Source: Bacteroidales bacterium
GTDB taxonomy: Bacteria; Bacteroidota; Bacteroidia; Bacteroidales; UBA12077
Assembly: GCA_028282785.1 (NCBI GenBank)
Contig: JANQHE010000034.1
Span: 62,001-126,000 of the forward strand
Direction: 5' to 3'
Length of the DNA: 64,000 bases
A program made the position numbers and the translations under genes. A model generated the notes under the pieces. The model was not told the DNA's origin and did not search any database. It worked only from the letters and a program-made list of their open reading frames with translations. Position 1 is the stretch's first letter. Each line of letters begins with the position of its first letter. Below are positions 11,351 through 31,595 of this stretch, in pieces.

Positions 11351-14300
11351 TTATTGTTTAATAAACTTCCGAGTTATAATCTGATCACCTTGCACTAATT
11401 TTAGAATATATGTGCCGGAGGAAATATCTGTAACATCTATTTTATTCTCAGGAGATTCGATAACTTTTATTAATTGGCCATGTAAACTGTAAATACTGAT
11501 ATGCGACAATTTATCGTTTGAATTAATAAAAATTACATCCCTACATGGATTAGGATAAAAGCTAATATTTTCTTTTCCGGGCATGTTTATTCCTGTGCTA
11601 ATATCTAAACTAACATCGTAACTATAGGTAATATCAAGATTATTACTGATTGCTTTCAAATCAATAGTTATCGTTTCATTACTTGCCTTTAGAGCTTGTA
11701 ATAACAGTATGTTATTATTCAAATTACATTGTAATAATCCTTCATTAGAATTACCTGTGATTTGAATTTCAATATCAGCATCATTATTATCAATATCACT
11801 AAAAACATTGCTTAAATCTACCTGTATTTCATCCAAAGAGTTAATAGTTAGATTATCCAGCTCATTTGCAATATATGGAGCATCATCAATAGGATTAACA
11901 CTTACAGGTAATATTAATGTACATGTTTTACCGTTCGATAGTGCTTCAATAGTAATATCAGAAGTTCCATACTGATTTTCTTCAAGATGAATGGAAAGAA
12001 TATTATTGTTTAGCTCAGCACCTAAGACTGTATTATCTGAAATGTTTTTGACTGATAGGCTTATTAAATTATCGTTGTTATCCACATCAGTAAATACACC
12101 GGTAAGGTCAATGCTAATCGGATCAGCATCTTCATCCATAACTGGATTTGATGGAGTATTAGCAATAACAGGTGCGTCGTCTAAAGGATTGATGATAACT
12201 GTTAAGTCTAATTCGCAAGTTTTATTATTCGATAAAGCCTCAATTGTTATAACCGCAGTTCCATTTTGATCCTTAGCAGGATTTATTGTCAGGGTTTTTC
12301 CTTCAAATCCAGCATTTAGTAGAGTTTGCTCTGAAATATTCTTAACAGTCAGGGTAATTTCACTGTCATTGTTATCAATATCGGTAAATACACTGGTAAA
12401 GTTGATATTGACAGGACTAGCATCTTCATCTATTACAGTATTTGCCGGTGTATTTGCAACTACAGGTGGATTGTCAAACGCATTGATCTTTACTTGTATT
12501 GTTAACTCACATGTTTTTCCGTTCGATAGTGCTTCAATGATAAGTTGACAGTCTTCTTCGTTACTATTTAAAGGTTTAATTGTAAGAATGTTATCATTTA
12601 TTTCTGCACTAATCTTATTTATATCAGAATTACTCTTGATAGATATTGCAATATCATTGTCATCGTTATCACAATCGCTAAATACATCCGATAAATCAAT
12701 GTTTGCAGCATCACCATCTTCTTCCAATACAGGATTTGCCGGAGTATTTCTTACATAAGGAGCAGCATCTTGTTCGATAGCATTAAAGTTATCGATACAG
12801 AAATATGCAGGAATAGTCAATCCAATTTCATTATTTCGCGATCCGGACACGGTAAAGTAGATTTTCTGTACTTCACCCAATGAAGAAAGATCAACCCATT
12901 TCCAGTAATTCAGAATATAATGATCGTCGGGATTATCAGAACGATAATCAGCCAGGTAAACATCTATGCTTGAAGTGATATTACCATTTTTATCTCTTCC
13001 CGAGAATGTTACTTTATACCAGTCACCTTGTTCAAATGGACCGCCAATAAAACTATCACCATTTTTTAATGATGAAACCAAATAAGCCGTATTGGTGATA
13101 AATGTACCTTTTAATAATTCTCCGTTAGAAGTATTGGTAAGGTTAATTTCAGGAACAAAACCATAAGCGTATGCTACTCCATAATTTTCAGAGTTCATAG
13201 CACCTGATCCGGCAGCTGATCGGAACTGTTGTTCTAAATAGTAATCAGGATCAAAATCTGTACTTGTTTCATTTGAATATGCAAATCCCATCCAGGTCAT
13301 ATACGATTCGTTGTAATAGTTATTAAAACTAAAAGAACCACTGTAGAAAATACTATTTTCTTCCTCAGGATTACCCATCCAGTAAGATTCAGGACTTAAA
13401 GACAATTCTTCGAATGTTGCAGTAGTTGCTTCGTTGCTTAACACATTTACAATAAGATTTGTGTTTGTTGTTGATCCAAAAGCATCGGTAACTTTAACTT
13501 TATATTCAGTTGTATGAGAAGGTGTAGCTTCCGGATTATAAACTGCAGCATCACTAAGATTCTCAGCTGGAGTCCATTCGTAATTGTATGGTTTAACACC
13601 ACCCGAAACAATTGCCTCTAGAGCTGCTTCTTCACCTGCATTAATTGTAATATCACTAATAGGATCAATACTTAATTCCAAAGGTAATGAACTAAAATCA
13701 TCAATATATAGTATTTCAGATCCGGCAGTGATTTCTATTCCTACTATTTGCCCTAATGATCTTAAACTTACGTAATCCCATTCAGCATAAGCATTAAGAT
13801 TAATTGCTTCCGTATAGGAAGCATCAGTTTTAATACCTTTTAATTGTGTTGCTGAAGCAGATTTTATGAAGAAGCCATCTAATATAAGGCCATCATCGGT
13901 ATTGGTTAATGAAATAGTTGCCGATTGTGTAGCTTCAACCTGAATATGTTTAAAAGAATATTCTGTAGCTCCTTCACCTTCAATAACATTAACACCAGAA
14001 AAGTAAGCTGTTCCGTCTTCAAAATTATCACTGGTTGTGGCAATTAACTCGAAAGTTGAAGGCTCGGTTGGTTTATAACCGGTCTGGAAACTAACTTTTG
14101 CTACAGACTCGGCAATATGATCCAGGTTATCTTTCACAACCACATATACATCATATTCAGTGTGCGAATCTAATCCTGTAATCATACTTGAAGCTGCTTT
14201 GTTTTTGTAGAATTCAAATTTCCCTTTTAAATGATCATCAATAGGATTATCTGTAGCATCGGTACCATTTATTACCTGGTCAACACTTGGAGCAGTTTCA

Positions 14301-17300
14301 TCTTTAGCCAGGATAACAAAATAAGCCATACCGTTGTTATCGGTTTTTACATTTAAGAAAGCATTCTGATGATCAATATTTGATATAAATGGATAACCAT
14401 CGGCAAATACAGGAGCGTTTGTGCTTGGTTCGGAAAATTCATCGGCTCCCAATGTAGGAGTTATTTCCGAACGGATTTCATTATCCATATCAACCAAAAC
14501 AGATGCAATCTTTATACCGCAATTCAGGTTACCGGCAGATTGCAGGTGTAAATCATTATCTGAATAAAAAGCAGGATCTTCAGAGACGGAATGATCAGCT
14601 CCGGTTAATGTTTTCCAACTGTTTAAATCGCTAACCATGTCACTTCCGTTTTTACATAAATTAGTACCTGCGGTAAACAGGTTATTGTAATCGAAAGTAA
14701 TTTCATTATAGAAGGTGGCATTATTCAGCGAAACAGCATATTGTTCTGTTTTATTTACAAACATGTTATTTTTAATGATCATGTTAGCAGGCATATCGCT
14801 GGTTCCGCCTGAGAATCTTAGTGCAGCATTGTTGGTTGAGCTACCTGTAATAAGAACCGTATTGTAATAAACTTCTGTATTTGATGATCCATCATCGAAT
14901 TCGAAACCATATGATTCATTTCCTGCATTTTGAAGGTTAACTACATTGTTGTAAATCATAGCATGATTGTCTTCGTCTCCCTGGATATATCTAAACTGGA
15001 ATCCAACAACTTCTTTGTTTACCGATGAACGAATGGTATTATTCGAAAATACAGAATTTCCAATCGTACGATATCCAACAACTGCGATCATTTCTGAAAT
15101 ACCGTCATTATCAACCAGGATTAAGTTATTCTCAAATCGGATATCCTTTTGATTATCCAACCATGCAACTTTTCTACCCTGGTTTCTAAAAGTATTATTT
15201 GTTATAATATGTCCTTTTTCTTTTGGTAAAACAACATATCCGGTTCCACATAATGATAATGCCGTGGCTGAACCATTAAATTCACAATTGTTAATCGTAA
15301 GGCGATCGTTGTTCTCGTTAGCTATATTTTCAGCATCGGTATCAATAGCTGAAATATCGCTATAACCAGTGCAGAAAGGAGCATCGAAATAACATGATTC
15401 GAAAGTAATATCTCTACTCTGGTTACGTATCAGGATAATACCATCGTAAGATGTTTTGCTGGTTTTGAAAGTTATATTCTCGAATGTAACAAAATCAGCT
15501 CCCTGTAGCTCAAATATACCGATATCATCAGAGCTTGTGATACTTAGATTGTAAACAAACTTTACATTTTCCTTAACTCCGTTTTTGGCTCTGAATATAA
15601 TGGTGTTTTCAGATGATGTACCCTGTATTTGAGGTAGCTGAACTCTTTCAACATAAATACCATCTTCAACTAAGAAAACTACATCATCTTCTATTCCAGA
15701 ATGGATTAAACTACTGACAGCTTCTTCGAATGAAATAAAATCTCCATTTCCGGATTGGTCAATAATAAATTCTCCTTGCATACCTGCAATTACTTTTCTG
15801 CTGCCTGCAGGATTTCCGTTGTCAGGATTATGTTGCTCATCATTAATTGTAAAGTTTATCAGCGTGGCATCCACAAAGTTTGCTATTTTGGCATTTTCAG
15901 ATATATCGTAAACTAACCAAAAGTAGAATCCAGCTTCATTTGTAATTGAAACATCGCAATTAAATATTAAGTTCCCATCTGTGTCAGGTGTTGTTTCTCC
16001 TAAAAGTTCACTGCTTTCAATATTAAGTATATTGGTTTCCTCGGAATAATATAGTTTTGCATTAAAAATATCACTATCAGCAGAACTTAAGCCCGTATTA
16101 AACTGAAAGTTTGTAATATTTGCAGGCGTTGTTTCTCCTCCAAAGTTTAGTTTTACCTGAAGGATTTCAGCATTCTTTTCATTTTTAATTACCGGATCCG
16201 TATTGGCTTGATTAACTACAACATCTTTATAGAAAATGGGTTGTGGTATAAAGCTTTGGACAGTGGCTTCCCATCCATCTTTAGGTGTTGACCATGAGTA
16301 ACTTTTAAATTCCACCGTTAGTTCGCCATTGTCTGCAGTAGATTTAAATACATATGGTTCATCAGAACTTGTTATATTCTCATCACCATCCATTTCACCA
16401 ATAAGATTTTCATCTTCAGTTCCGTTACCGTTATAAACTAAAATTTCATCCATGCTGTAGAATTGAAGGCTATTGATTGTTAAACGGGCTTTTTGAGTAT
16501 TATCTTCAGGGATGAAAGTTACCGTTCCGGTAAAATCTTTGGAATATTTATTGGCCTGTCCGCCATCATCGAAAAACTGTAACGGGGTTTCGTTAACATA
16601 TACCGTATTTATTCCGGCTCCAAGGTTGTAAATGTTCTTAATGATACTGCTTTCTGCAGGTGCACCATTATCAATGGTATACTCGGAATCCATTAATTGA
16701 ACTTTTTTAAGTTCGGCATCAACGGTATTGTCTATAGTAGCTCCTGATGCGATATCATATACCAACCAGAAGTAATTGTTACCTTCTTCAAGAGAATTAG
16801 TACTTGTAAAGGTAAAATCATTTTCAGGAGCAGAAACTTCTGTACCAACAGGAGTTGTTGTTGAAAAAGCATTATCTTTTCCTGTGAAATATAATCGGGC
16901 AGCACTTAAATCAGTAGGCTGGGTTGTTCCATTCGTATTAAAAGTAAATATGGTATTGTTAACAGGATTTAATGTTCCGGAGGTTTTCAGATTAATAGAC
17001 AGTATTTGCTGATCGATAGATCCGGGTTTTACAAAGCCAGATTGCTGAGTTACCTCTGCTGATTTGAACTCCATATCTTTAGGCACTTCGCTCCATAATG
17101 TTGCTTCCCAGCCGGTTTTAGTATATGTGGAAGTATAGGTATTACCAGCAAATTGAATGGTAAGTGTTCCGTTATCAGCAGTTGAAGTTACAATATAACC
17201 AGGCCCATCGGAGCAGTTTGTTTCATCAGCTTCCCATAATAAATCGGCAGATGCAGTACTGTTTCCGTTAAATATTTTGAATACTGCTTTTGTACCATAA

Positions 17301-19342
17301 GTAGAGCTTGAATAGTAAATATCGAAAGAAGAAAAATCAACTTTCATTTTTTCGTTGCTATTTGATGGAATAAATGTAACGGTTGACATAGCATCGGGAC
17401 TGTATTTTCCTCCTGGTCCTTCGTTATCATCTGTAAATGGAATTTCCTGGTAAATAGTTTTTGTAAGAGTGCCTGATGTTGGCATTCTAAAGGTATTGTC
17501 TATGGTTCTATTTCCTTCAGGAGATGTTGTTGTGGGAACCTGGCTTGTTCCGCCAACATACACAGAAGTACAAGAAGCGTCTACAACATTATAGTGATTT
17601 GCCAGATTGGCCATATCATACACTAACCAAAAGTAGTTTTTACCTACACTTAGCTCTTGGTTTGAGCTTATCGTAAATTCTCCATTTGGTAAATTTTGCT
17701 CGCCAACTAAATTTGAGGAGCTAAAAACATTTTTATTTGCAGTATAATATAATTTAGCTTTTGCAATATCTCCAGCATCGGAAGAACCGGAAGTGTTGAA
17801 AATAAAATTTCCTGTAGATATAGGATTAAGTGTATTTTCGGTTTCTATCTCAATTTTTAGGATTTGTGCATCTGTTTCAGATGCAGAAACAACATTAGTG
17901 ATTCCCTGTAATACATTTGAAGCAACATAACTCATGTTAGAAGGGGTAAATTCAGAAACCAGAGCCTGCCATCCTTCTTTTGGCGCTCCTGTGTTTACTT
18001 TAAAATAAATGGTAATGGCACCGCTCGCATCCATTGAATAAATACTTGGTGGCATTTCCGAATAGGTGTCAATTAAATTAGCTTCATCAGTGGTTGGTCC
18101 ATGGTAGATCTTAAAGATATCGTTATTACCGGTACTTGAAGTATTAAATATTTCGAAATTGTTCCATTCAATTTTTATAGATTTACTACTGGTGTTCGGA
18201 ATAAATGTTATGGTGCCTTCAAATCCTTCAGAATACTTTTCCAATTCACCACCATCATCGTAAAAAACAAGATTTTCGTTAACAGCAACAGTATTTGTTC
18301 CCGATGACATATTCAAAATTTTCTTAAGTTGCCTGTTAGCATTAGGATTTGGTGAGGAAACTGCATAATTATCTGTTCCTATAGTAATTTGTGAACAGCT
18401 AGCATCCACTAAATTATCTAATAAGGCACCAGCACTAATATCAAATGCAAGCCAAAAATAATTGTTTCCTTCTGCCAGTTCGGTGTTTCCATTTAAGGTT
18501 ATAGCATTTTGAATAATGCTGGTTTCTCCTAGTGGCGTTGAAGTTGTAAATAAGTTTGAATTTCCTGTATAAAACAGTTGAGCCCTGGTAATATCGTTTA
18601 AATCTGTTGTGCCATCTAAACTAAAATTAAAATCATTGATGGTTAATTTATTCAGCGCACCTTGAGTTTTTATATTAATACCAACAATATCGTTGTTTGT
18701 GCTACCTATAGAAATAACATTTGTATTGTTTTGAAATGATTCGGCAGAAACAAATTGCATAGGTGCTGGTTCATAAACCTGAACATGATCAATGAATAGA
18801 TTTTTACTGCCATAATCGCTAATAACTTCAAAAGAAAGTATTGTTTCATCGGTAGCTCCTGTTAGTTCTAAGTCAATTTCAATCCAATCATTAGCAAATC
18901 CATCAGCAGCATGATTATATATTTCACTATAATTGGCTCCATTATCCGTTGACATTTTTATTACGAAAACAGGATCTTGACTGTAACCATCGGTACACTG
19001 CCATGAAAGCTTAAGTTTAGGGTTTGATAAACTTCCCAATTGTAAAACGGGTGTTTTAAGTTTAGCCACCATATTTTTGGAAATGTTGTAAACATCAGCC
19101 ATAGCTGCATATGTACCATCTGGTACATTTCCCGGGCCATAAGTGGACCCATCATTTTGCTCCCAGCCATCACCGCTGGCATCTTCTGTTTCGGCTGTCC
19201 AACCTTCCGGAGGGAAGGTGGTTCCTTCAAAACTTTCTACCCATGGAAAGGCAGAGATTGCTTTCGAGGGTTTTTTTCCATTCCCGGCATATAACCATAC
19301 CGAGAATAAGCTCAATAAAATGAGTGTAATTGTTTTTTTCAT
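11351..19342 (-). CDS. Giant T9SS-secreted modular surface protein (2663 aa)
   Basis: Visible order: signal peptide (1-20); adhesin/choice-of-anchor-J-like domain (33-192); alternating modules 193-1180, four copies of a BNR_assoc_N-like unit (LxxxNYFWLVYDI) and three CUB-like units (FYDDGG...YS..F.GT.TFIP, KEGWQA); right-handed beta-helix (1188-1640); Fn3-like (1643-1755); two DUF4465-like domains (1757-1892, 1975-2190) around a PKD/SprB-like unit; four tandem Ig/cadherin-like repeats (2195-2582) with DLTGVFTDVDNND; T9SS type A sorting domain (2590-2663, FYPNPCRDVIF...GTYILKL). It should be exported by T9SS and anchored outside. As last gene of the cobalamin-riboswitch cluster, 42 bases after the BtuG-like gene, a role in surface corrinoid capture is possible but not shown. 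Domain limits are approximate. Confidence 0.85.
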   Translation of the reverse strand: MKKTITLILLSLFSVWLYAGNGKKPSKAISAFPWVESFEGTTFPPEGWTAETEDASGDGWEQNDGSTYGPGNVPDGTYAAMADVYNISKNMVAKLKTPVLQLGSLSNPKLKLSWQCTDGYSQDPVFVIKMSTDNGANYSEIYNHAADGFANDWIEIDLELTGATDETILSFEVISDYGSKNLFIDHVQVYEPAPMQFVSAESFQNNTNVISIGSTNNDIVGINIKTQGALNKLTINDFNFSLDGTTDLNDITRAQLFYTGNSNLFTTSTPLGETSIIQNAITLNGNTELAEGNNYFWLAFDISAGALLDNLVDASCSQITIGTDNYAVSSPNPNANRQLKKILNMSSGTNTVAVNENLVFYDDGGELEKYSEGFEGTITFIPNTSSKSIKIEWNNFEIFNTSSTGNNDIFKIYHGPTTDEANLIDTYSEMPPSIYSMDASGAITIYFKVNTGAPKEGWQALVSEFTPSNMSYVASNVLQGITNVVSASETDAQILKIEIETENTLNPISTGNFIFNTSGSSDAGDIAKAKLYYTANKNVFSSSNLVGEQNLPNGEFTISSNQELSVGKNYFWLVYDMANLANHYNVVDASCTSVYVGGTSQVPTTTSPEGNRTIDNTFRMPTSGTLTKTIYQEIPFTDDNEGPGGKYSPDAMSTVTFIPSNSNEKMKVDFSSFDIYYSSSTYGTKAVFKIFNGNSTASADLLWEADETNCSDGPGYIVTSTADNGTLTIQFAGNTYTSTYTKTGWEATLWSEVPKDMEFKSAEVTQQSGFVKPGSIDQQILSINLKTSGTLNPVNNTIFTFNTNGTTQPTDLSAARLYFTGKDNAFSTTTPVGTEVSAPENDFTFTSTNSLEEGNNYFWLVYDIASGATIDNTVDAELKKVQLMDSEYTIDNGAPAESSIIKNIYNLGAGINTVYVNETPLQFFDDGGQANKYSKDFTGTVTFIPEDNTQKARLTINSLQFYSMDEILVYNGNGTEDENLIGEMDGDENITSSDEPYVFKSTADNGELTVEFKSYSWSTPKDGWEATVQSFIPQPIFYKDVVVNQANTDPVIKNEKNAEILQVKLNFGGETTPANITNFQFNTGLSSADSDIFNAKLYYSEETNILNIESSELLGETTPDTDGNLIFNCDVSITNEAGFYFWLVYDISENAKIANFVDATLINFTINDEQHNPDNGNPAGSRKVIAGMQGEFIIDQSGNGDFISFEEAVSSLIHSGIEDDVVFLVEDGIYVERVQLPQIQGTSSENTIIFRAKNGVKENVKFVYNLSITSSDDIGIFELQGADFVTFENITFKTSKTSYDGIILIRNQSRDITFESCYFDAPFCTGYSDISAIDTDAENIANENNDRLTINNCEFNGSATALSLCGTGYVVLPKEKGHIITNNTFRNQGRKVAWLDNQKDIRFENNLILVDNDGISEMIAVVGYRTIGNSVFSNNTIRSSVNKEVVGFQFRYIQGDEDNHAMIYNNVVNLQNAGNESYGFEFDDGSSNTEVYYNTVLITGSSTNNAALRFSGGTSDMPANMIIKNNMFVNKTEQYAVSLNNATFYNEITFDYNNLFTAGTNLCKNGSDMVSDLNSWKTLTGADHSVSEDPAFYSDNDLHLQSAGNLNCGIKIASVLVDMDNEIRSEITPTLGADEFSEPSTNAPVFADGYPFISNIDHQNAFLNVKTDNNGMAYFVILAKDETAPSVDQVINGTDATDNPIDDHLKGKFEFYKNKAASSMITGLDSHTEYDVYVVVKDNLDHIAESVAKVSFQTGYKPTEPSTFELIATTSDNFEDGTAYFSGVNVIEGEGATEYSFKHIQVEATQSATISLTNTDDGLILDGFFIKSASATQLKGIKTDASYTEAINLNAYAEWDYVSLRSLGQIVGIEITAGSEILYIDDFSSLPLELSIDPISDITINAGEEAALEAIVSGGVKPYNYEWTPAENLSDAAVYNPEATPSHTTEYKVKVTDAFGSTTNTNLIVNVLSNEATTATFEELSLSPESYWMGNPEEENSIFYSGSFSFNNYYNESYMTWMGFAYSNETSTDFDPDYYLEQQFRSAAGSGAMNSENYGVAYAYGFVPEINLTNTSNGELLKGTFITNTAYLVSSLKNGDSFIGGPFEQGDWYKVTFSGRDKNGNITSSIDVYLADYRSDNPDDHYILNYWKWVDLSSLGEVQKIYFTVSGSRNNEIGLTIPAYFCIDNFNAIEQDAAPYVRNTPANPVLEEDGDAANIDLSDVFSDCDNDDNDIAISIKSNSDINKISAEINDNILTIKPLNSNEEDCQLIIEALSNGKTCELTIQVKINAFDNPPVVANTPANTVIDEDASPVNINFTSVFTDIDNNDSEITLTVKNISEQTLLNAGFEGKTLTINPAKDQNGTAVITIEALSNNKTCELDLTVIINPLDDAPVIANTPSNPVMDEDADPISIDLTGVFTDVDNNDNLISLSVKNISDNTVLGAELNNNILSIHLEENQYGTSDITIEALSNGKTCTLILPVSVNPIDDAPYIANELDNLTINSLDEIQVDLSNVFSDIDNNDADIEIQITGNSNEGLLQCNLNNNILLLQALKASNETITIDLKAISNNLDITYSYDVSLDISTGINMPGKENISFYPNPCRDVIFINSNDKLSHISIYSLHGQLIKVIESPENKIDVTDISSGTYILKLVQGDQIITRKFIKQ
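11597..12760 (-). repeat. Four tandem Ig/cadherin-like repeats in the 2663-aa protein
   Basis: Four units of about 97 residues each contain the pattern PV.DEDA..I.IDLT.VFTD.DNND, then ITIEALSN.KTCEL. Similarity is also visible in the DNA (about 12120-12480). Related units occur in the 1704-aa protein of the same cluster, so the two genes share a stalk-like repeat. Confidence 0.85.
15803..18766 (-). repeat. Alternating sialidase-N-like and CUB-like modules
   Basis: Residues 193-1180 consist of four copies of a unit of about 145 residues with the core A.LYYT...N.F......G......N.YFWLVYDI....VDA, separated by three CUB-like units with F.DDGG..KYS..F.GTVTFIP and T.KDGWEA. This internal amplification explains much of the protein's length. 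Confidence 0.75.
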
Positions 19343-19384
19343 TGTTTAATTAAATTTAATTTTTGAATAGGTTATTTGATATAA

Positions 19385-20512
19385 TTATTTTTGATTGCTT
19401 GGTTTAAAGCAAAATGCTCCAGGAATGATACCTACCTTAAAGGTATCTACCGGTTCACCTTGAGGTGAGTATCGGTACGTTACACCTTGTTGAACATAAT
19501 CTATGGCATCGGCGACATAAATTTCAGAACTTACCGGATCAACAGTTAATCCATAATACCCACCGGAATAGTTTCCTTCGTAATGACTTTCAATAAAAGG
19601 CTCATCGGGAAAAATGGAAGCAGTAACCGGTAAACGGAATATATGACGGTTAATAAAGTAAAGTGTATCCTTGGTACCATTTAAGCATACTTCAGAAGGC
19701 CAATCGCCCAATTCAAACCTAAAAATTTTCTCTACTTTACGTGTTTCTGCATCAATGCAAATTAGCCCGGGAGCTTCGTGTCCGTAGGGACTACCGTAAT
19801 ACCCTCCATCGGTTACGGTCCATATTTTATTGTATTTATCAAGAACAAGCGAAGTGGGTTGTTTAAGGACTTTAATAGAATTAACGACCCGGTCAGTTTC
19901 GCTATCAATAACTAAAATCTGATTATCGTACGACCAACAGTTTGTAAATACATATTTACCGTATTGTACCATTTGCTCGGTAGGATGCTGATAAAATTCA
20001 GAGGAATGATTATCCACATTTATAGAACCTGTAATTTGGAATGTTTTAGGATTTACAATGGCAATGGACTTTGCATAAAGATCAGTTATGTAAGCTTTAT
20101 GATCATTTATAAAATGAATATACCGGGGAGAGGTTAATCCGGTAATTTTACCTACATAATCAAAAGTGTGAATATTAATTACGTATACTTTTCCTGAATT
20201 ATTAACTACTATATAACCTAAAGAGTCGCGAATAGCCATAGATTGAGCTACATCTCCCAATGGAACAGCATTTGTTCTGTAAAATACATTGTTCAGGTTT
20301 TTCATCGAATCAATCATGTAATAGGAGAGAGAAGCATTATCGTACATGAAATTACCTTCGTTGGTAATAAAAACACCCCGTTGATTTCTGATATAATTGG
20401 TAAGCGATGTATCTTGCTTCACTTCAAGTTTATTAAACTCGGTAAGTTCATCATCGTCCATACACGAATAAATTAGTGTGCTTATGATGAATATGAAAAG
20501 GTATTTTTTCAT
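19385..20512 (-). CDS. btuG: BtuG-like surface beta-propeller lipoprotein (DUF5074/YncE type)
   Basis: The 375-residue product has a lipoprotein signal (STLIYSC) followed by MDDDE, an acidic stretch like the Bacteroidota lipoprotein export signal for surface exposure. The rest is a seven-bladed-type beta-propeller with repeats such as [34 protein letters not shown] and [16 protein letters not shown], starting [20 protein letters not shown], the style of BtuG of Bacteroides, which binds cobalamin tightly and caps BtuB. It lies 30 bases after a BtuB-like receptor gene in a cobalamin-riboswitch cluster, which supports the call. Binding itself is not demonstrated; other DUF5074 proteins bind other ligands. 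Confidence 0.8.
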
Positions 20513-20542
20513 TGTCTTATGGTTTTAATCGTTACCTAAATG

Positions 20543-22561: not shown

Positions 22562-22569
22562 TCTGTTTA

Positions 22570-25005
22570 TTAGTGATTTATGATGATTTTTTTGCTGATT
22601 ATTTTATCGGAATCTTTTATCTGTATGAAATAAATCCCATTAGTCCATGTATTCGTATTAATGGTTATTTCAGTAAATAGCTGAAAATGATTTTGATATT
22701 TAAGTATTCCTGTTGATGAGTATATGAAAATGTCTACCGGTTCACTCGTTATATTATTGGCTTTAATAGAAATATATTGGTCCGCAGGATTTGGATACAT
22801 TTTGAAAGAAGCTTCTAATTTTTCAATTCCCGTTATACCGTTTTCTACAATTAGATGGTATTTTTCAGTGGCTATTCGAACCAAATACTCACCGGTATTT
22901 TTAAAATGAAGATGTGCTTTTCCATTATTATCAGTTGAAATGAAAATTCCATCCTCGGAATATTCTTCATCATTCACAATGACAGGGACAGATATAGCCG
23001 GAATAATTCCATTACTTGTAACTGACGAATTTTCTATATGATATGAATCGCATGAAGCGCTTATGTCAAGAGTTTTGCCTGTTTCAACTGTGGTTTCAAT
23101 AAAATCAACCTGATATATACACCAGGGAAAATGGACGTTATCAATATAATAAACAAATACTTCATCGCCTTCAGATACTTGTATATCTGCAAAACCATGT
23201 ACAAAACCGGCGTTATTGTGTTTTATGATCCAGGCATTATCTTCATATCCTCCCGATCCGTAATAGTATTCAATGTTATTGCCCACATTAACAGGGAGTT
23301 GTGAGATGTATAAGTTACCTTCTGGTTTATCAGCAAAACGTAGATCACTTTCAAATTCAATATTTTCGAATACTGAAGCTACAACATGGGCAAGTGTAAT
23401 TACCGGAATATCATGTAATCCGTAATTCAGGTTTGGATTAGTAATAAACGGACTCAAATTAAAGTTAGTAACTTCAATTTTACTCCTAGTAAACACAATA
23501 CCTTTATCTGACTTAATGCTTAAATAAACCTGAATTTTATCAGGTGCTTTTAGTACGGTTATTTCAACAGAATCTTTAATGTTTTCAAAACCTTTAGGAT
23601 GTACATATAGTTTTGATTTTCCTTCTTTTTTACCTTGTATCTGATAGGTATCATTGTTTTGTTCAATAGCTATATTGTCGTTTGAACTGCTCCAGATATT
23701 TTCTAAACCATAAAAATAATGGCCATTTTGATCCATTACTTTAGCACTAATTGTAAGTATATCGCCAACTCTTAATTCGTTTTGTTCAAATTCTAAGATT
23801 ATTTTGTCGGGAGCAATAATATCTGTGTTTATGGTCTTGGTATAAGTTGTGCCATTATTATATTTTGCTGTAACGATAATCTTTCCTGTATCAATAGCAG
23901 TTAAATAGTTATTTTCATCTATTCTGGCTTTTAATGGTTTATCAACTGACCATTCAATATTTTCTGCATTTTGTATTTTTCCCTTTATAAAAAAGTTGGC
24001 TTCAAGTTTAAGTATGGTACCTGCACTAACTTGTGGTGGAAGGTCGTTAAGCACAAACAGGTTTTCTTCGCCCGTAATCGAAGGGTTTGGAGTAACATCC
24101 ATAACAGCGGTAATTTCGGTTGAGACTTCACCTAACCAACCAGCTTCTTCGTTTATTGCAGTATATATTTTCACAAAATCAATTTGATCCAGGTTTGCAG
24201 GATTGCCTTTGGAATCTACTGCCCAGTCAATATCTATAGGATCGCCACCACATCCTTCTTTTTCGGGAGTATAAGGATTATCGGGTACATCGTAGGGTGC
24301 ACTTCCCCGGGGGAAGTTATCGGCATATCCGAATCCGCGTCGAAACGACATAATGTAAGTAGGGATGGTTTTATCTACAAAACCCTTAATTCGCGTACCC
24401 GAAAAACCATAACTTTCCTGGTTAATGTCCGGGAACAAATCCGCCGAAGGATAATAAGGTTGTAAATGAAATTCGTTAGCATAAACATAACCTGTATCAT
24501 TTTGATTGTCGATCCATTCTACATCAGCAGCGACTTCGCTATTAGGATTGGTATAGGAGAGCGAGTAATTTTTAATGGTAGATTCCCAATAATGATCGCT
24601 ACCTACAATTTCGTACCAGGTGTCGTCGGCAATCCCATTCTGATTTTCATCTTTCATAACCATAATAATTCCCGGTTCAGACCATTCTTCCAATGGATTT
24701 CCAAATACAGTAAAATCAATTCCATAGGGATTTTCAGGATCATTTTCCAGTGATTTGTTAAATCCAACAATAATGTATCCTCCATAAGCACCAAGGCTAA
24801 TACCTCCGCTTACTCCTCCAATAATTGATTCTGCTTTTGTTGGTGTTCCCCAGGCAGAAGTATTGATAAATTGACCCGGTGCCGGCTTATATTCAATAAT
24901 CCGGGAAACAAAGATTTCATTTTTTGTTTTTTGTATGTTTAAAATGTTCTGACCTGATAATGATTTTAAAATTAGGATCAGAATAATGGTTATAAAAGAT
25001 CGCAT
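22570..25005 (-). CDS. T9SS-sorted surface protein with transcobalamin-like (DUF4430-like) segment
   Basis: 811 residues: signal peptide (1-19); domain 36-304 with GPGQF-type start, SLGAYGGYIIVGF, NPYGIDFTVFGN, DDTWYEIVGS and AGWLGEVS, homologous to residues 225-497 of the 1704-aa neighbour; two BIG2-like Ig units (about 320-490); a segment at 490-636 whose pattern (GLHDIPVITLAHVVAS, then NAWIIKHNN...GFADIQVSEGDEVFVYYID) resembles DUF4430, the beta-domain fold of transcobalamin; another Ig-like unit; T9SS sorting domain (733-811, MYPNPADQYISI). Likely secreted and surface anchored. Position between BtuB-like and 1704-aa genes suggests cobalamin capture. The DUF4430 match is by eye. Confidence 0.78.
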   Translation of the reverse strand: MRSFITIILILILKSLSGQNILNIQKTKNEIFVSRIIEYKPAPGQFINTSAWGTPTKAESIIGGVSGGISLGAYGGYIIVGFNKSLENDPENPYGIDFTVFGNPLEEWSEPGIIMVMKDENQNGIADDTWYEIVGSDHYWESTIKNYSLSYTNPNSEVAADVEWIDNQNDTGYVYANEFHLQPYYPSADLFPDINQESYGFSGTRIKGFVDKTIPTYIMSFRRGFGYADNFPRGSAPYDVPDNPYTPEKEGCGGDPIDIDWAVDSKGNPANLDQIDFVKIYTAINEEAGWLGEVSTEITAVMDVTPNPSITGEENLFVLNDLPPQVSAGTILKLEANFFIKGKIQNAENIEWSVDKPLKARIDENNYLTAIDTGKIIVTAKYNNGTTYTKTINTDIIAPDKIILEFEQNELRVGDILTISAKVMDQNGHYFYGLENIWSSSNDNIAIEQNNDTYQIQGKKEGKSKLYVHPKGFENIKDSVEITVLKAPDKIQVYLSIKSDKGIVFTRSKIEVTNFNLSPFITNPNLNYGLHDIPVITLAHVVASVFENIEFESDLRFADKPEGNLYISQLPVNVGNNIEYYYGSGGYEDNAWIIKHNNAGFVHGFADIQVSEGDEVFVYYIDNVHFPWCIYQVDFIETTVETGKTLDISASCDSYHIENSSVTSNGIIPAISVPVIVNDEEYSEDGIFISTDNNGKAHLHFKNTGEYLVRIATEKYHLIVENGITGIEKLEASFKMYPNPADQYISIKANNITSEPVDIFIYSSTGILKYQNHFQLFTEITINTNTWTNGIYFIQIKDSDKIISKKIIINH

Positions 25006-25027
25006 TCTGTGAAGATTTAAATGAAAA

Positions 25028-25054
25028 TTACCGGGATCAGGGTGATCCCGGTAA
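25028..25054 (-). terminator. Intra-cluster hairpin between 1704-aa and 811-aa genes
   Basis: Perfect 12-base arms TTACCGGGATCA (25028-25039) and TGATCCCGGTAA (25043-25054) with a 3-base centre begin 12 bases after the 1704-aa stop codon. On the minus strand TTTTCAT follows. It may be a leaky terminator or an mRNA processing/stability element inside the operon. Confidence 0.65.
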
Positions 25055-25066
25055 AGAAATAATGTA

Positions 25067-28000
25067 TTATTGTTTAATAATTGTTTTTGTAATTTGCTTG
25101 TTATTACCTTTAATACTTATGAAATAAGTACCGCTTGGTAAACCGGAAACATTTATTTTACAATAATTGATATTTTCAGGATTGATTATTCGTTGGATAT
25201 TTCCAATGCTGTTATATATAACAATACGTTCCATTCCAAATTCACAATCAATGTTAATAATATCCTGAACAGGATTAGGATAAATCTTGAGAGTAATTTT
25301 TTCGATGTCATCAAATCCGGTAGCAGTGTTATTTACTGTAATATTAAATGATGTATTTACAGATTCAGTTCCATCACTTGCAGTAACTGTTAATTCAGCC
25401 GTGCCATATTGATCCTGAACAAATGATACGTTTAGTATATTTTCCGAGATTGAAGTTTCAACTAGGCTTTCATTTGTATTATTACTAATGGTAATTTCAA
25501 GCTTATCACCATCAATGTCGTCGAATATATTACTTAAATCAATTTGCTTATCTGCAGCATTCATATCTACAGTTATATCGTCGATTGTTTCAACAACAAC
25601 AGGTTGATCGTTAACAGCATTAACCACAAGATTAAATGTATCTGTTACGGATAATCCATTTGAAGTTGCTTCAACAACAACTTCTGATTCTCCAAACTGA
25701 TTTTCAAGTAATGCTAAAGATAAATTGTTACTATTGATTTCAGCATTTAAAAGGTTTGTATTCGAAATACTTTTAACAACTTTTGTTATAGCAGTATTAT
25801 CGTTATCAATATCATCAAATACATTGGTTAAATCAATATCAGCTATATTTTCATCTTCGTTTGCCGTGATATCAGCTATTGGATTAGCAACAGTTGGCGC
25901 ATTATCAGTGGCTTTAACATTAATATTAAACGTATCAGTTACGGTTAGTGTATTTGATGTAGCTTCGATAATAACTTCCAGTTTACCCGATTGATTTTCT
26001 TTTAATTCAATAGTTAAAAGATTATTTGTAATACTTATTGTTAGTAAAGTTTCATCTATTACGCTAATAATTTCTTTAGTAATGACTGAATTATCATTAT
26101 CTATATCATCAAATACATTTGATAAGTCAATGGCAGCAATGCTTTCATTTTCATTAGCAGTAATATCAGCTATTGAATTTGCAACATATGGAGCATCATC
26201 TACCGGTGTTACATAAACATTAAATGTGTCAGTTAAGGTTACATCATTTGATTCTGCTTCTATTATTACTTCAGCTTCACCATTTTGTTCCTCGTTAAAA
26301 TGAATGGTTAATACATTATTGCTGATTGTTGTAGTTATCAGTGATGGATTTGTATTACTTATTATACTAGTGCTGATTGGATTATCAACATCAACGAATG
26401 TTTCTGTTAATGTAAAAAGAGAGTCAGCAGCATCTTCATCAACTGAAATATCAGGGATTAATGTTCCTAATGTCATTGGATCATCTACAGGATTGATAGT
26501 TATTTTAACCGTATCGAGAACAAATGCACCTTGCTTATCTATTCCTTGCATTAGCACATTAAAAGTCGTTGGCTCTGTTAACTCTGCATTGTAATTTCCG
26601 GAAATGTAACGTGTTTGTGAGTCAAAACTTAACCAATCGTACTGAGCCGGATTATATAAATACATGGCAGGGTAATTATCCTCTTTATCTTTAAATGTAG
26701 AATATGATAATCTAAATTTAAAGCCTTCACCTTCGTTATATGTCTTTAATGAATTGGTTGAATAAGTGTAAGGTTTCTCGTTCATTACTGATGCTTGACA
26801 TATTTTCATAACTTCAGGTGATGCACCAACGCCTTTAAATGACCCAATACTATCAAGATTGCTATTGTAAATCTGACCAACACCTTCTCCATGCCAGTAA
26901 GCATAAGCTACATAGTACTTCTTTTCATCAGGATCATAAGCAGAACCTCGGCCAATATGATCGCTATCCTGAGTATAATATGACGGAATATTCATATGTG
27001 TTTCGGTTCCAAAACTTTGATCTTGTGTATTGAACGCAACATAGCCAAGATCTTTTTTAATGAAAATAGTGTCGTTGGTGCATGGTTCAATCGCTAATGG
27101 TGACGAATCGTAAGGAATTCCAGAGGTATATTCTACTTCTTGAATACTACCGGAAGCTATATCATAGATAACAACTCCGGAGTTAAATCGACCCATAAAG
27201 TCAGCAAGACGCACACAATAAATTTTGTTTTCTTTGGCAATCATTTGCATTACACCAAGTCCGGCAATGCCAAGATCAACTTCTTTGTCGAGCGTTAATG
27301 TTTTTAAGTCGATAATAGCCAAAGAACTTGCCTGGCCTGCAAAACCACCGTTGATCATAACATAAGCGGTGTCATTAACAATCACAATGTCAGTAGCCTG
27401 ATCAGATACAGGGATCTTTTTGATAAAGGATAGATCACCTTTATTGTAAATTCGCACATTGTATCCATCTTCAGGTGCTTGAGCACTGTTTTGACGTGTG
27501 GCCAACAACATATTCTTGTAAATGGCTAGTTTATGATTTACTCCTGCCATATCAGTTCCCTGACCATCGGCACTATTAGGATCTAAATCCTGAGTATAAA
27601 TTGAGTCCGTTGCAGTTCTTGAAGAAACATTATATCTGGTTATATAATAATCTGCCGATACATAAGCATAGTTACCATCAACAATCATATCCTGAACTGA
27701 GGTAGCTCCTGCAAGGTAATTATCAATTTGAATGGTAGTATCTTGCTCGGGAATATAAGTCATTAATTCAGTAGGAGCATTAGGATTCATAAACTCACCT
27801 CCATTTGTAAACAGGATTTGTTTTGGCGAATTGTAATTATCCGGTTCTACTGCTTTAAATACTAAGTTAATTGTTTTTTCTACACCAAAAGCTTCAACAG
27901 TAAACTCTATATTTTCTGTACCGTAAAGATTTTCTTTAACTGAATACTCCAGTTTGTTACTATTAATTTCAGCATGTATGATATTTGCAGAGAAATTGAT

Positions 28001-30181
28001 TGATTTCAGATACACAATGGCGTCAACCCCGGTTTGAAATAATTCGTTATTTTCAAAGGAACCTGATCTGCTATAGTATGGAATATTAATGGTGTCATTA
28101 ATAGCAGTTATATCAGGAATGTCAGTTACTATGGCAACAATGGTGTCTTTAAGCTCTGGACTGTGGGCAGATTGAGCAATTATATTTGTAGTACCTGTGT
28201 TTTTAGCTTTAAAAATGCCATTATGAATAGTACCTACGTTACTATCCGATGATATCCAGTTGAAAGTTTCATATACAAACCTATTACGATCGCCTGAACG
28301 ATTGTCAATAGCTTCAGCATGAATATATTCGGTTTCTCCTTTAATAATTCTAATCGTATCATTAGATACATTCGAGTTTCCTTCAAGCTCTATAATTATA
28401 TCAGTTAGTTCAACCACTTCGATTATTAGAGAATCTTCAGGGACACTGTTTTTAGCATTAAAATGAATGGTAGTTTGACCATTTTCAATAGCAGTAAGTA
28501 AACCTGTATTATCGATAATTGCTACATGCGTACTATCAGAGCTCCATTGAGGAGTTCCTGATTGAGGAATACCATTTTTAAACAGTAAACCTTCATATTG
28601 TAATGAGGTTCCTTTTAAAACCTGTAATTGAGCAGCTCCAATCGCATGAAATTCATAATTTTTAGGAACATAATCAGGATTTGGAGTTGTTATAGCAACT
28701 TTAAATATTTCAGGTGAAATTTCACCTAACCATCCACCATCTTCTTGTACGGTACTATATACCTTAACAAAATGAACAGTATCTAAAGATACTTGGTTCC
28801 CGTGAATATCAACAGCCCATTCAAGATCAAAACCATCTGCGGCTTTTCCATTTTCATCTTCAAAATAAGGATTCATTGGATTTGTAGGGTATCTATTTGC
28901 AGGTCGGCTATCAGCATAACCAAATGCAGGCAATCTTTTTGCTACTATATAGTTAGGTTTGCTTTTATCCAGCAAGAACCGTGTGAATGTGCCATTGTAT
29001 GAGACAGAATCTGGACTTATTTCAAAAGAATAAGGATCAGGGTAATACTGTTGCTTGTGAAAACTGTTTGTTCTCATTGCTCCATTAAAACCTTTATCCG
29101 TGCTATAAGTTATGGTATGCCTATCATTATATTCAGGATTGTAATATGTCATGGTTAGATCTTTAATCGAGGATTGGAAATAATATTCTGAGCCAGCCAA
29201 TTCATACCATGTATCATCTGGTAATCCATTTTTATTTACATCTTTCATTACCTGAACAGCAGCAGGCTCTCCCCATCCGCCAAAAGCATTACCCACAACT
29301 GTGAAATCTACTCCATATGGATTATTCGCTCGATTTATAATAGGCTGGTCAAAACCAACAATAATATAGCCACCAAAACCACCTAATGAAACTCCGCCGC
29401 TGGTATTCCCAATAACCTTTTTAGCAGCAGCCGTATCGGCCCATGAAGTATTTACAAATTGTCCGGGACCTGGCAAGAAGTCAAATATTTTAGATACATA
29501 GGAGTTTTTATGTACATTCATATATACTACTGCAGTATCGTAATTTGCATCGATATCGGCAATTCGATATATCATCTTATCACTTGTGTAGTTAGGCGTA
29601 TTTTTATCACTATAATATTTTATGGTACCATCTCCTGTAATTTGATGTATACCTGACGTTGCACTTTGAATAATTTCAAAACTTGAATAATCAAGAAAAG
29701 TTCTTGGATTATCATTTTGGGTTACAGTTACTTCTAAAGTATCTCCAATATCAAGATCATAAGAATCATCAGAACATTCTATAGGATCTATATTTGTAAT
29801 AACCTTAGAGATGGCATCTATTCCATTATATGTTAATGTAATAGTTAGAGTATCTTTACCATATGAATTAGCAGGAATTTTATAATAAAAATATTGTCCA
29901 CTCCAAGTAGAATAATAGTATCCATCAAAAAATAGATTTGATTCATTGGTAGATGAGAAGTTGATTGTGATATCAGCATTTGTGGAGAGTTCACTTTTGA
30001 TATCAATTTCTGCAGGGAAATTAAACAGGTCGGCAAATTTTACAGTTCTTTTGTAATCCGAAGAACTGCGCATTCGATCTACCTTTAAATTTTCTTTATG
30101 AGTAAACTCCTGGCTATAAGAGCTTATTCCAAATAAAGTTAGTCCTGCAAAGACTAATAAAAATTTGTAGATTTGTTTCAT
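25067..30181 (-). CDS. Giant T9SS surface protein with internal BtuG-like propeller (1704 aa)
   Basis: Order seen: signal peptide (1-23); beta-rich N-terminal region; Ig-like (135-225); the domain shared with the 811-aa protein (225-497; GPGQFVNTSW, SLGGFGGYIIVGF, PYGVDFTVVGN, DDTWYELAGSEYY); two BIG2-like units (512-686); Ig-like (690-780); a DUF5074/YncE-like propeller (785-1130; ILFTNGGEFMNP, YAYVSADYYITRYN, SSLAIIDLKTLTL, SGVVIYDIASGSI); four Ig/cadherin-like repeats (1232-1618; IDLSNVFDDIDNDN); T9SS type A sorting domain (1630-1704). It is the second gene after the cobalamin riboswitch. The propeller resembles the BtuG-like lipoprotein of the same cluster, so cobalamin or corrinoid binding is inferred, not proven. 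Confidence 0.85.
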   Translation of the reverse strand: MKQIYKFLLVFAGLTLFGISSYSQEFTHKENLKVDRMRSSSDYKRTVKFADLFNFPAEIDIKSELSTNADITINFSSTNESNLFFDGYYYSTWSGQYFYYKIPANSYGKDTLTITLTYNGIDAISKVITNIDPIECSDDSYDLDIGDTLEVTVTQNDNPRTFLDYSSFEIIQSATSGIHQITGDGTIKYYSDKNTPNYTSDKMIYRIADIDANYDTAVVYMNVHKNSYVSKIFDFLPGPGQFVNTSWADTAAAKKVIGNTSGGVSLGGFGGYIIVGFDQPIINRANNPYGVDFTVVGNAFGGWGEPAAVQVMKDVNKNGLPDDTWYELAGSEYYFQSSIKDLTMTYYNPEYNDRHTITYSTDKGFNGAMRTNSFHKQQYYPDPYSFEISPDSVSYNGTFTRFLLDKSKPNYIVAKRLPAFGYADSRPANRYPTNPMNPYFEDENGKAADGFDLEWAVDIHGNQVSLDTVHFVKVYSTVQEDGGWLGEISPEIFKVAITTPNPDYVPKNYEFHAIGAAQLQVLKGTSLQYEGLLFKNGIPQSGTPQWSSDSTHVAIIDNTGLLTAIENGQTTIHFNAKNSVPEDSLIIEVVELTDIIIELEGNSNVSNDTIRIIKGETEYIHAEAIDNRSGDRNRFVYETFNWISSDSNVGTIHNGIFKAKNTGTTNIIAQSAHSPELKDTIVAIVTDIPDITAINDTINIPYYSRSGSFENNELFQTGVDAIVYLKSINFSANIIHAEINSNKLEYSVKENLYGTENIEFTVEAFGVEKTINLVFKAVEPDNYNSPKQILFTNGGEFMNPNAPTELMTYIPEQDTTIQIDNYLAGATSVQDMIVDGNYAYVSADYYITRYNVSSRTATDSIYTQDLDPNSADGQGTDMAGVNHKLAIYKNMLLATRQNSAQAPEDGYNVRIYNKGDLSFIKKIPVSDQATDIVIVNDTAYVMINGGFAGQASSLAIIDLKTLTLDKEVDLGIAGLGVMQMIAKENKIYCVRLADFMGRFNSGVVIYDIASGSIQEVEYTSGIPYDSSPLAIEPCTNDTIFIKKDLGYVAFNTQDQSFGTETHMNIPSYYTQDSDHIGRGSAYDPDEKKYYVAYAYWHGEGVGQIYNSNLDSIGSFKGVGASPEVMKICQASVMNEKPYTYSTNSLKTYNEGEGFKFRLSYSTFKDKEDNYPAMYLYNPAQYDWLSFDSQTRYISGNYNAELTEPTTFNVLMQGIDKQGAFVLDTVKITINPVDDPMTLGTLIPDISVDEDAADSLFTLTETFVDVDNPISTSIISNTNPSLITTTISNNVLTIHFNEEQNGEAEVIIEAESNDVTLTDTFNVYVTPVDDAPYVANSIADITANENESIAAIDLSNVFDDIDNDNSVITKEIISVIDETLLTISITNNLLTIELKENQSGKLEVIIEATSNTLTVTDTFNINVKATDNAPTVANPIADITANEDENIADIDLTNVFDDIDNDNTAITKVVKSISNTNLLNAEINSNNLSLALLENQFGESEVVVEATSNGLSVTDTFNLVVNAVNDQPVVVETIDDITVDMNAADKQIDLSNIFDDIDGDKLEITISNNTNESLVETSISENILNVSFVQDQYGTAELTVTASDGTESVNTSFNITVNNTATGFDDIEKITLKIYPNPVQDIINIDCEFGMERIVIYNSIGNIQRIINPENINYCKINVSGLPSGTYFISIKGNNKQITKTIIKQ
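25328..26488 (-). repeat. Four tandem Ig/cadherin-like repeats in the 1704-aa protein
   Basis: Units of about 97 residues with P.VAN.IADITANE.E.IA.IDLSNVFDDIDNDN and EVI.EA.SN...VTDTFN. Units two and three are the most alike. They precede the sorting domain, so they probably form a stalk holding the ligand-binding part away from the surface. Confidence 0.85.
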
Positions 30182-30220
30182 AATGCAATTGTTTATTAAT
30201 AAATGATTGTTTTAGAGTTA

Positions 30221-30255
30221 TGAGCGGCTGGGGTTTTGGCGAACGCAGCCGCTCA
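30221..30255. other. GC-rich hairpin between DUF6580-like gene and 1704-aa gene
   Basis: Perfect 10-base arms TGAGCGGCTG (30221-30230) and CAGCCGCTCA (30246-30255) enclose 15 bases, directly after the first gene of the cluster. A T-run follows only on the plus strand; on the minus (transcribed) strand TAACTCTAAAAC follows, so it is not a standard terminator there. It could separate expression of gene one from the rest or protect mRNA. Confidence 0.6.
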
Positions 30256-30260
30256 GTTTT

Positions 30261-30839
30261 TTATTTTGTTTTTTGTTTTTCAAGTTGCAATGCAGGGAAA
30301 CGGTATTTAGCAACTTCAAATATTCCAAACAATAATCCGGAATATATGAGGTCTCCCATAAATGTATTTTTCAAAAAAGGTAAACCTGCGGTATAGCACA
30401 TTATAAGGCCTGTAAATGATTTTGAATACATTGTTCCGGATGCCCATACACCAAAATTTGATAGGATAAAAAAGCTAATAGATGCCAGGCATGAGGCGAA
30501 CAGAATATTTGTAATTCTGATTTTTTTAATTAGTCCAAATCCAATAAATCCAATAACAATAAAGGCTCCATAGGTCCAGTAGCATCCCTGGTAAAACCAA
30601 ACAAAATGATCGAAATATTGTACATAAACAATATTATTAAGTGCTAAGTCGCTTAACCACATGGAAGCAATGGGTATAATTATGGCAAAATGCTTTTGTT
30701 TTAAATATGCTGCGCCAAATAATGCCATAGCACCAATAGGGGCAAAGTTAGGAGGATGTGGTATTAACCGGCTAAAGGCAGCCAATAAAATCAATAGAGA
30801 AAGTACTCCAAATCGTAAATGAATTTTTGATCTTTTCAT
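30261..30839 (-). CDS. DUF6580-like integral membrane protein behind cobalamin riboswitch
   Basis: From the ATG at 30839 the protein has 192 residues with five to six membrane segments. AFSRLIPHPPNFAPIGAMALFGAAY at the start is what I recall for DUF6580-type proteins of Bacteroidota; the compact hydrophobic layout also resembles vitamin ECF S-components. It is the first gene after the riboswitch. No BtuC, BtuD or BtuF lies in the cluster, so this could be an inner-membrane corrinoid or cobalt transport component; that is inference. A start at 30905 would add 22 polar residues and overlap the riboswitch expression region, so it is disfavoured. Confidence 0.7.
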   Translation of the reverse strand: MKRSKIHLRFGVLSLLILLAAFSRLIPHPPNFAPIGAMALFGAAYLKQKHFAIIIPIASMWLSDLALNNIVYVQYFDHFVWFYQGCYWTYGAFIVIGFIGFGLIKKIRITNILFASCLASISFFILSNFGVWASGTMYSKSFTGLIMCYTAGLPFLKNTFMGDLIYSGLLFGIFEVAKYRFPALQLEKQKTK

Positions 30840-30961
30840 CGTTACTGCAATTTTAATTGAGTTAATAACTTGATCTTGCAGCAAACGATGAATTTGGAAG
30901 GCCAATAAAACATCGAAATGATCAGCTACCCGTTCTCCGCAGGCTACAAAATCTATGTTTA

Positions 30962-31092
30962 ATTGGCAGGTCTTCTGACTTAGGCCTGTTTTAACGCCTT
31001 CCCCTCCAAATTAAAGAGTGACATATTGTTAAAACATTTAATAGCCATCACAGCAGCGGGAACTGTTGCCGAATTTAACGACATTCCCTTTT
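30962..31092 (-). promoter_or_regulatory. Cobalamin (adenosylcobalamin-type) riboswitch, minus strand
   Basis: Read on the minus strand it starts AAAAGGGAATGTCG, continues with GGCAACAGTTCCCGCTGCTGTGA (core shown at 31034-31060) and ends with the B12-box-like AGAAGACCTGCCAAT (30962-30976). These are the conserved blocks of cobalamin riboswitches. It precedes the DUF6580-like gene by about 120 bases and so should repress the six-gene surface uptake cluster when cobalamin is plentiful. Confidence 0.92.
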
Positions 31093-31133
31093 AATCCTTT
31101 TCCTAATAAGAAAAATAGGAACCAATTAGATGG

Positions 31134-31161
31134 CAAATATAATTATTATTTTTCCCAACAA
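31134..31161 (-). promoter_or_regulatory. Bacteroidota-type promoter for the minus-strand cobalamin cluster
   Basis: On the minus strand TTG (31161-31159) is followed after exactly 17 bases by TATATTTG (31141-31134), a full match to the TTG-N17..23-TAnnTTTG promoter pattern known from Bacteroidota. Transcription would begin around 31126, some 35 bases before the riboswitch core. Confidence 0.7.
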
Positions 31162-31181: not shown

Positions 31182-31230
31182 CATCCAAGTTCATTCAGAT
31201 CATGTAAAATTAAGATACTCCTTAAAAAGA

Positions 31231-31480
31231 GTTTAAAAGGGAATCACGTGCCTTGCCTGCCATCCTGATAGTTCTTGGGAAAACGGCGGCATGAAATCGT
31301 GGGCTGACGCGCAACTGTAATCCTGATTCTGATACACTCAGATTCGTGCTTTCAGCAATTGTGCCATTTTACTCAAAGAATAGTTTAGTTTGAAGTGCGG
31401 AGCGATCCGCCTTCGCTAAAGCTTCGATGGGTGAGAGAAGGCGCTGAAAGTCGGGAAAGCCAGGAGACCTGTCTTAATTG
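31231..31480 (+). promoter_or_regulatory. Cobalamin riboswitch with enlarged variable arm, plus strand
   Basis: Conserved blocks are AAAAGGGAATCACGTGCC (31235-31252), GACGCGCAACTGTAA (about 31307-31321) and the B12-box-like GCCAGGAGACCTGTC (31459-31473). Between them CTTTCAGC (about 31349-31356) can pair with GCTGAAAG (about 31443-31450), enclosing an insert of about 85 bases with a GCGGA-GCGA-TCCGC tetraloop hairpin and a CGCCTT/AAGGCG pairing option. The AspT/YidE-type transporter gene begins about 115 bases downstream. Confidence 0.88.
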
Positions 31481-31595
31481 TTTCTTGAATGATATCTGCT
31501 TTCGCGGTATAAAGCATGTATCGATCTTTTTTACAGATCCATTTTCTTTATTTCCCGCGGGCACAATTTGTTGTTAACTTAAATCTATTTAGAAA

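Follow-up and report, generated by a model that had tools for sequence, protein, structure and literature searches.

The 64,000-nucleotide stretch of a Bacteroidales genome analyzed here (contig JANQHE010000034.1, positions 62,001 to 126,000; hereafter the window) contains a minus-strand run of six open reading frames (ORFs) that we read, with a probability of roughly 0.85, as a cobamide-repressed operon for uptake at the cell surface, with binders that use the type IX secretion system (T9SS) for export, a BtuG/BtuB pair, and a DUF6580 importer. The run is headed by a Bacteroidota-type promoter (TTG-N17-TATATTTG, a consensus match read directly from the sequence at 31134 to 31161, running from 31161 to 31134 on the minus strand) and a cobalamin riboswitch (30948 to 31141, minus strand; RF00174, 106.1 bits, E value of 1.5e-25). 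These are followed in order by DUF6580, a 1704-amino-acid (aa) T9SS protein, an 811-aa T9SS protein, BtuB, BtuG, and a 2663-aa T9SS protein, with intergenic gaps of 79, 61, 8, 30, and 42 bases. The original prediction, made by a model from the sequence, had described this run with its gaps, promoter, and riboswitch, and all of these were confirmed in place by the ORF list, the reading of the sequence, and the RF00174 search; it had overlooked a second, divergent cobalamin riboswitch (31196 to 31490, plus strand; RF00174, 67.4 bits, E value of 1.7e-14), which lies 54 bases from the first. Both riboswitches scored above the Rfam gathering threshold of 31.5 bits, and a simple scan found no intrinsic terminators near either of them. 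Because only four RF00174 cobalamin riboswitches occur in the whole 5.5-Mb genome of 81 contigs and other loci repeat the combination, as described below, the association goes beyond chance. Taken on sequence, the view that the locus is a cobalamin-riboswitch operon for corrinoid capture at the surface, with the binding modules carried by predicted T9SS cargo, is supported.

All three large proteins, which are encoded on the minus strand, terminate in a T9SS sorting domain (PF18962/TIGR04183), as had been claimed, and the T9SS translocon SprA is encoded in the genome (2656 bits). The original prediction had also seen modules resembling cobalamin binders in two of the proteins; the modules proved to belong to the BtuH and DUF4465/BtuJ families, relatives of which bind B12 experimentally (PMC8941943, PMC12751083, PMC13398666), and they are present in three proteins rather than two. 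The 1704-aa protein (25067 to 30181) combines a BtuH-type B12-binding domain (28691 to 29506; 8blw_B, E value of 2e-37; 7biz_A, 8e-35) with immunoglobulin (Ig)-like domains, a distant BtuG-like propeller, cadherin-like repeats, and a type A sorting domain (25076 to 25285; PF18962, 1.6e-11), and the 811-aa protein (22570 to 25005) consists of a BtuH-type domain (24091 to 24915; 8blw_B, 1e-43; 7biz_A, 1e-38), Ig-like domains, and a type A sorting domain (22579 to 22800; PF18962, 2.3e-11). The two BtuH domains, N-terminal in the 811-aa protein and internal in the 1704-aa protein, are 44% identical to each other and match the solved structures 7biz (BtuH2) and 8blw (BtuGH) with E values between 1e-34 and 1e-43, the alignments spanning about 270 residues and the whole C-terminal domain of BtuH2/BtuGH. 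Six BtuH2 residues make polar contacts with B12, namely, Gln333, Asn399, His476, Tyr510, Trp511, and Trp577 (PMC8941943), and by alignment five of them are retained (Gln333, Asn399, His476, Tyr510, and Trp577). The position of Trp511, occupied by Ile or Val in the window domains, speaks against our reading; it is also variable in BtuGH, which binds B12. The lipoprotein anchor of known BtuH proteins is absent from the window domains, and a T9SS sorting domain stands in its place.

The propeller-like region of the 1704-aa protein (26771 to 27841) had no PDB sequence match and is distantly similar to BtuG (hhalign probability of 91% over 145 columns), so this protein, with its BtuH domain and propeller, is possibly the counterpart of BtuGH. 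An AlphaFold2 (AF2) model of its BtuH and propeller half, built from three sequences, had a predicted local distance difference test (pLDDT) score of 43 and was not used, and the assignment of residues 484 to 735 of the 811-aa protein to a transcobalamin-like DUF4430 domain was dropped after no Pfam match was found. The 2663-aa protein (11351 to 19342) carries BNR_assoc_N-like repeats, a DUF4465 (BtuJ-type) B12-binding domain (12785 to 13306; 9hmu_A, E value of 8e-28), further repeats, and a type A sorting domain (11360 to 11557; PF18962, 2.7e-11; TIGR04183, 7e-14). The DUF4465 domain scored 176 bits against a PF14717 cutoff of 25 (E value of 8.8e-52), and its TIPAYFCID segment aligned with NTPSYFCLD of 9hmu_A, keeping the conserved Pro-x-Tyr that ends the main binding loop. 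It is related to the B12-bound 9hmu and to BtuJ1/BtuJ2, and B12 binding has been reported for eight distant members of the DUF4465 family (PMC13398666).

By homology, the large proteins would thus bind cobamide, and their predicted place is the cell surface. They might instead be soluble cobamide scavengers ("cobalophores") or sit on outer membrane vesicles, competing for or sharing B12 at a distance and returning it to BtuG/BtuB, which we consider unlikely. T9SS cargo may be either released or anchored, and a sorting domain alone does not tell which; nothing in the sequence favors release over anchoring, and a tethered stalk would agree with the great length of the proteins and their Ig-like and cadherin-like repeats. 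Action away from the cell does have a precedent in BtuJ1/J2, which work on extracellular vesicles in Bacteroides thetaiotaomicron (PMC12751083). It is also conceivable, if highly improbable, that the large proteins serve chiefly in adhesion or as structural components of the surface, having acquired B12-binding domains, and that their position in the operon is incidental. Repeats without a known role in B12 binding do make up most of both the 2663-aa and the 1704-aa protein, but the shared, conserved part is the B12-binding domain, and shorter relatives of about 400 to 490 aa, with little beyond a BtuH domain, Ig domains, and the tail, occupy the same riboswitch operons.

The receptor and the lipoprotein that accompany the large proteins were both identified as predicted. 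BtuB (20543 to 22561, minus strand), the TonB-dependent cobamide receptor, is of the Bacteroides type (8bmx_C, a solved Bacteroides BtuB, E value of 3e-112) and, with 60 bits, fell far below the cutoff of the Escherichia coli-type TIGR01779. BtuG (19385 to 20512, minus strand), a 375-aa surface lipoprotein with a DUF5074 domain, matched solved BtuG structures (8bn0/8bmy/3dsm) with E values of about 1e-131, and its Cys17 is followed by MDDDE, which, read from the sequence, resembles a surface-export signal. Since the lipoprotein BtuG is still present, the T9SS binders are an addition to BtuBG and no substitute for it. Elsewhere in the genome, contig C8 has an operon with the order riboswitch-BtuB-BtuG-diphthamide synthase-like-CobU-CobT plus a CobS-like gene, and contig C79 encodes a lipoprotein DUF4465 protein and, after an opposite-strand gene, BtuF-, BtuC-, and BtuD-like proteins; by its gene content, therefore, the window locus is a second BtuBG system with a T9SS layer. 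A Cas9-like gene (L168, G000:C8, 7216 to 9999) adjoins the C8 operon in divergent orientation, with the same neighborhood in two loci of the same genus (L148 and L151). On contig C37, a cobalamin riboswitch precedes the anaerobic ribonucleotide reductase gene nrdD (L169, G000:C37, 3842 to 6016), as if this B12-independent enzyme were off when B12 is present.

A GTDB genome scan with both window BtuH domains gave 80 loci. The same order was present in a locus of an environmental Bacteroidales metagenome-assembled genome (MAG) (L071), with riboswitch, DUF6580, a 1795-aa BtuH-propeller-T9SS protein, a 489-aa BtuH-T9SS protein, BtuB, and BtuG. Further non-gut loci with T9SS-tailed BtuH were L015, L016, L017, L020, L024, and L029, and five of these seven loci, L071 included, had a riboswitch in the stretch searched per locus. 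At the level of the order, the BtuH domain occurred in 54 of 247 genomes, two same-genus genomes among the 247 being without it, and a BtuH, DUF4465, or BtuG-like protein with a T9SS tail was found in 21 of the 40 loci fetched; one of the 21 (L097) is the same record as L015, and several loci share one genome or genus, which takes weight from the recurrence. The tails were called with a profile of our own, and in a Pfam check of 10 of them, 8 were above the cutoff and 2 just below it. A cobalamin riboswitch was present in 19 of the 20 T9SS-tailed order-level loci put to Rfam, the exception (L129) being a 5-kb contig, and at four riboswitches per 5.5 Mb the chance of one in an 18-kb stretch is roughly 1%. 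These results indicate that riboswitch-controlled T9SS display of B12-binding domains, as predicted from the gene contexts, recurs in many other Bacteroidota.

Some of these loci showed other arrangements. In a Sporocytophaga MAG (L024, 10097 to 14467), BtuH, DUF4465, and many Ig domains are joined in one T9SS protein, the gene of which lies next to two further DUF4465 genes and a pair of riboswitches. T9SS-tailed propeller proteins directly follow a riboswitch or DUF6580 in L016 (8728 to 9927), L017 (8484 to 9941), L109 (5400 to 8189), and L100 (3109 to 7398), and a second family of BtuG-like propellers (VNEDWFG...) is represented in the last two.

The T9SS tails also followed the secretion system, being found in 21 of 32 SprA-positive versus 0 of 4 SprA-negative genomes (Fisher P value of 0.003 at the level of loci, with loci of one genome being nonindependent; about 0.02 by genome with a hypergeometric test). 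A quick tree was made for 116 BtuH domains (28 T9SS, 72 lipoprotein, and 16 other forms); 22 T9SS forms fell within one supported set of 27, and the starred branches require the T9SS label to have changed at least four times. Near the main T9SS-BtuH set were two giant proteins of Gram-positive Peptoniphilaceae (L021, 5903 to 13507; L022, 6461 to 13777), 2.4 to 2.5 thousand residues long, each with a BtuH domain and with ATP-binding cassette (ABC) transporter genes alongside; the L022 protein, the one of the two scanned with Pfam, had SLH and weak DUF4430 domains, and the L021 locus contained cobalamin riboswitches. Given the repeated label changes in the tree and the SLH, ABC transporter, and riboswitch contexts in Peptoniphilaceae, the BtuH domain appears to keep its job while its anchor changes.

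The first gene of the operon (30261 to 30839, minus strand) had been called a DUF6580-like membrane protein, and it matched PF20221 with an E value of 1e-55; it has six predicted membrane helices and is a candidate cobamide importer, with an ATG at 30839 as a more likely start than the TTG at 30905. With an AF2 model as the query (pLDDT of 58 from a three-sequence input, a weak model), the best Foldseek matches were S components of energy-coupling factor (ECF) transporters, and in a second structural alignment (VIA) BtuM with cobalamin (8c7p and 8ovv) was level with BioY at a Z score of 13.3, the top rows being nearly all S components. BtuM is a solitary S-component-like vitamin B12 transporter found mostly in Proteobacteria (PMC6072759). 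DUF6580 resembles it in length (about 190 aa), in its six helices, in being the joint best structural match, in its adjacency to btuB, and in the absence of any EcfT hit in the genome, and differs from it in having only about 11% identity and in not conserving the invariant cobalt-binding cysteine. The search of this genome found neither EcfT nor CbiQ, so an ordinary ECF S component was rejected; organisms with BtuM have no EcfT either (PMC6072759). Membership in BtuM was rejected as well, since the DUF6580 alignment has no invariant Cys and the cobalt-liganding cysteine is thus absent. We infer from the weak model and the gene context that DUF6580 may import cobamide in the manner of BtuM without being a BtuM.

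Of 296 genomes of the phylum, 120 contain PF20221. Among the 14 Bacteroidia DUF6580 loci put to Rfam, 9 had a cobalamin riboswitch, which in 8 heads DUF6580's own gene run, and the usual order was riboswitch-BtuB-DUF6580. In other classes, YceI-like and DNA-repair genes were the neighbors, with BtuB-like or BtuG-like proteins also occurring outside Bacteroidia, and DUF6580 as a general riboswitch gene was discarded, the link holding for Bacteroidia. Several points weigh against the importer part of our reading: the model reached a pLDDT of only 58 from three sequences, helical bundles can in some cases score a Z of 13 without kinship (a warning of the tool), none of 20 loci of other classes had a cobalamin riboswitch within 1.5 kb of DUF6580, and BtuFCD and the other BtuBG system elsewhere in the genome mean that DUF6580 is not the sole route. 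DUF6580 could, moreover, be an unrelated membrane protein or import another substrate, such as a cobamide precursor (e.g., 5,6-dimethylbenzimidazole) or another vitamin, an alternative that is doubtful but quite possible: the fold match is common to all S components, the BtuM cysteine is absent, and the YceI-like and DNA-repair neighbors in other classes fit it, whereas in 8 of the 14 Bacteroidia loci DUF6580 comes after a riboswitch or BtuB/BtuG, and in the window it heads the operon, both of which argue for a cobamide. Our tentative proposal, to which we give somewhat short of an even chance, is that DUF6580 represents an unrecognized family of S-component-fold cobamide importers without an ECF module in Bacteroidota, paired here with a T9SS outer capture layer, so that the operon could by itself move cobamide from the medium into the cytoplasm. 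The literature searched contained no mention of DUF6580 and no role for it.

Downstream of the second riboswitch lies a gene for a YidE/AspT-type (Asp-Al_Ex) transporter (31596 to 33251, plus strand; NF003007, E value of 3e-180; PF06826, 6e-83), and this pairing (31196 to 33251, plus strand, in the window) was seen again in L147, the genome of which belongs to a different family. It is followed by a 159-aa PAS protein (33464 to 33943, plus strand) that resembles LOV photoreceptors (NF052652, E value of 1e-18) and has the motif RKPSFLQG, without the photoactive cysteine.

The operon as we read it would work as follows. When cobamide is scarce, the first riboswitch would permit expression of the six genes and the second that of the transporter. 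The three large proteins would cross the inner membrane by means of their signal peptides, leave through the T9SS, and either remain on the cell surface or be shed close to it, where their BtuH and DUF4465 domains would bind cobamide tightly and hand it over to the lipoprotein BtuG. BtuG would act as a lid on the TonB-dependent BtuB, which would bring cobamide to the periplasm, and DUF6580 would be the likeliest operon-encoded inner-membrane importer, acting either on its own, as BtuM does, or alongside the BtuFCD encoded elsewhere in the genome.

The cobamide loci of B. thetaiotaomicron encode BtuB, BtuG, BtuH, BtuJ, BtuK, and BtuL (PMC6143338, PMC8941943, PMC10404256, PMC12751083). The window locus shares with them a riboswitch-controlled operon, BtuB and BtuG homologues, and the same BtuH and DUF4465/BtuJ B12-binding domains, and the BtuGH fusion is comparable with the BtuH and propeller regions of the 1704-aa protein. 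However, the accessory binders of B. thetaiotaomicron are all lipoproteins of about 250 to 660 aa, whereas those of the window are 811 to 2663 aa long and carry T9SS sorting domains, and the described loci list no DUF6580, the first gene here. The 2663-aa protein, with DUF4465 and a C-terminal sorting domain, is of the same kind as a set of T9SS-targeted DUF4465 proteins already on record. The sorting domain by which that set is defined, IPR026444, is that of the T9SS. It was counted at the C terminus of 229 of 824 DUF4465 (IPR027828) proteins, and the family was proposed to be mainly extracellular (Juodeikis et al. 2025, PMC12751083); according to a later paper, the rest of the family has periplasmic signals (PMC13398666). 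The former paper gives the DUF4465/IPR026444 count only, and operon context, T9SS-tailed BtuH, and the giant repeat architecture are undiscussed there. Open-access papers on the T9SS together with cobalamin or BtuB had nothing on BtuH or such operons. The suggestion that T9SS-dependent B12 scavenging was undescribed thus holds in part: on the count of 229 proteins, targeting to the T9SS was already known for DUF4465, one of the two families of binding domain, and T9SS-tailed BtuH and the combined operon were found nowhere in the open-access literature searched.

Overall, surface capture of B12 in Bacteroidota has been known from the lipoproteins of gut Bacteroides, and here the same domains appear to use another secretion route in mostly non-gut Bacteroidota. 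This display by the T9SS, together with the predicted S-layer proteins of two Gram-positive species, suggests that B12-binding domains are modules hung on whichever surface anchor a cell has. The finding would link the T9SS to vitamin scavenging, and it makes T9SS-tailed BtuH proteins and DUF6580 candidates for cobamide acquisition by bacteria that have this secretion system.

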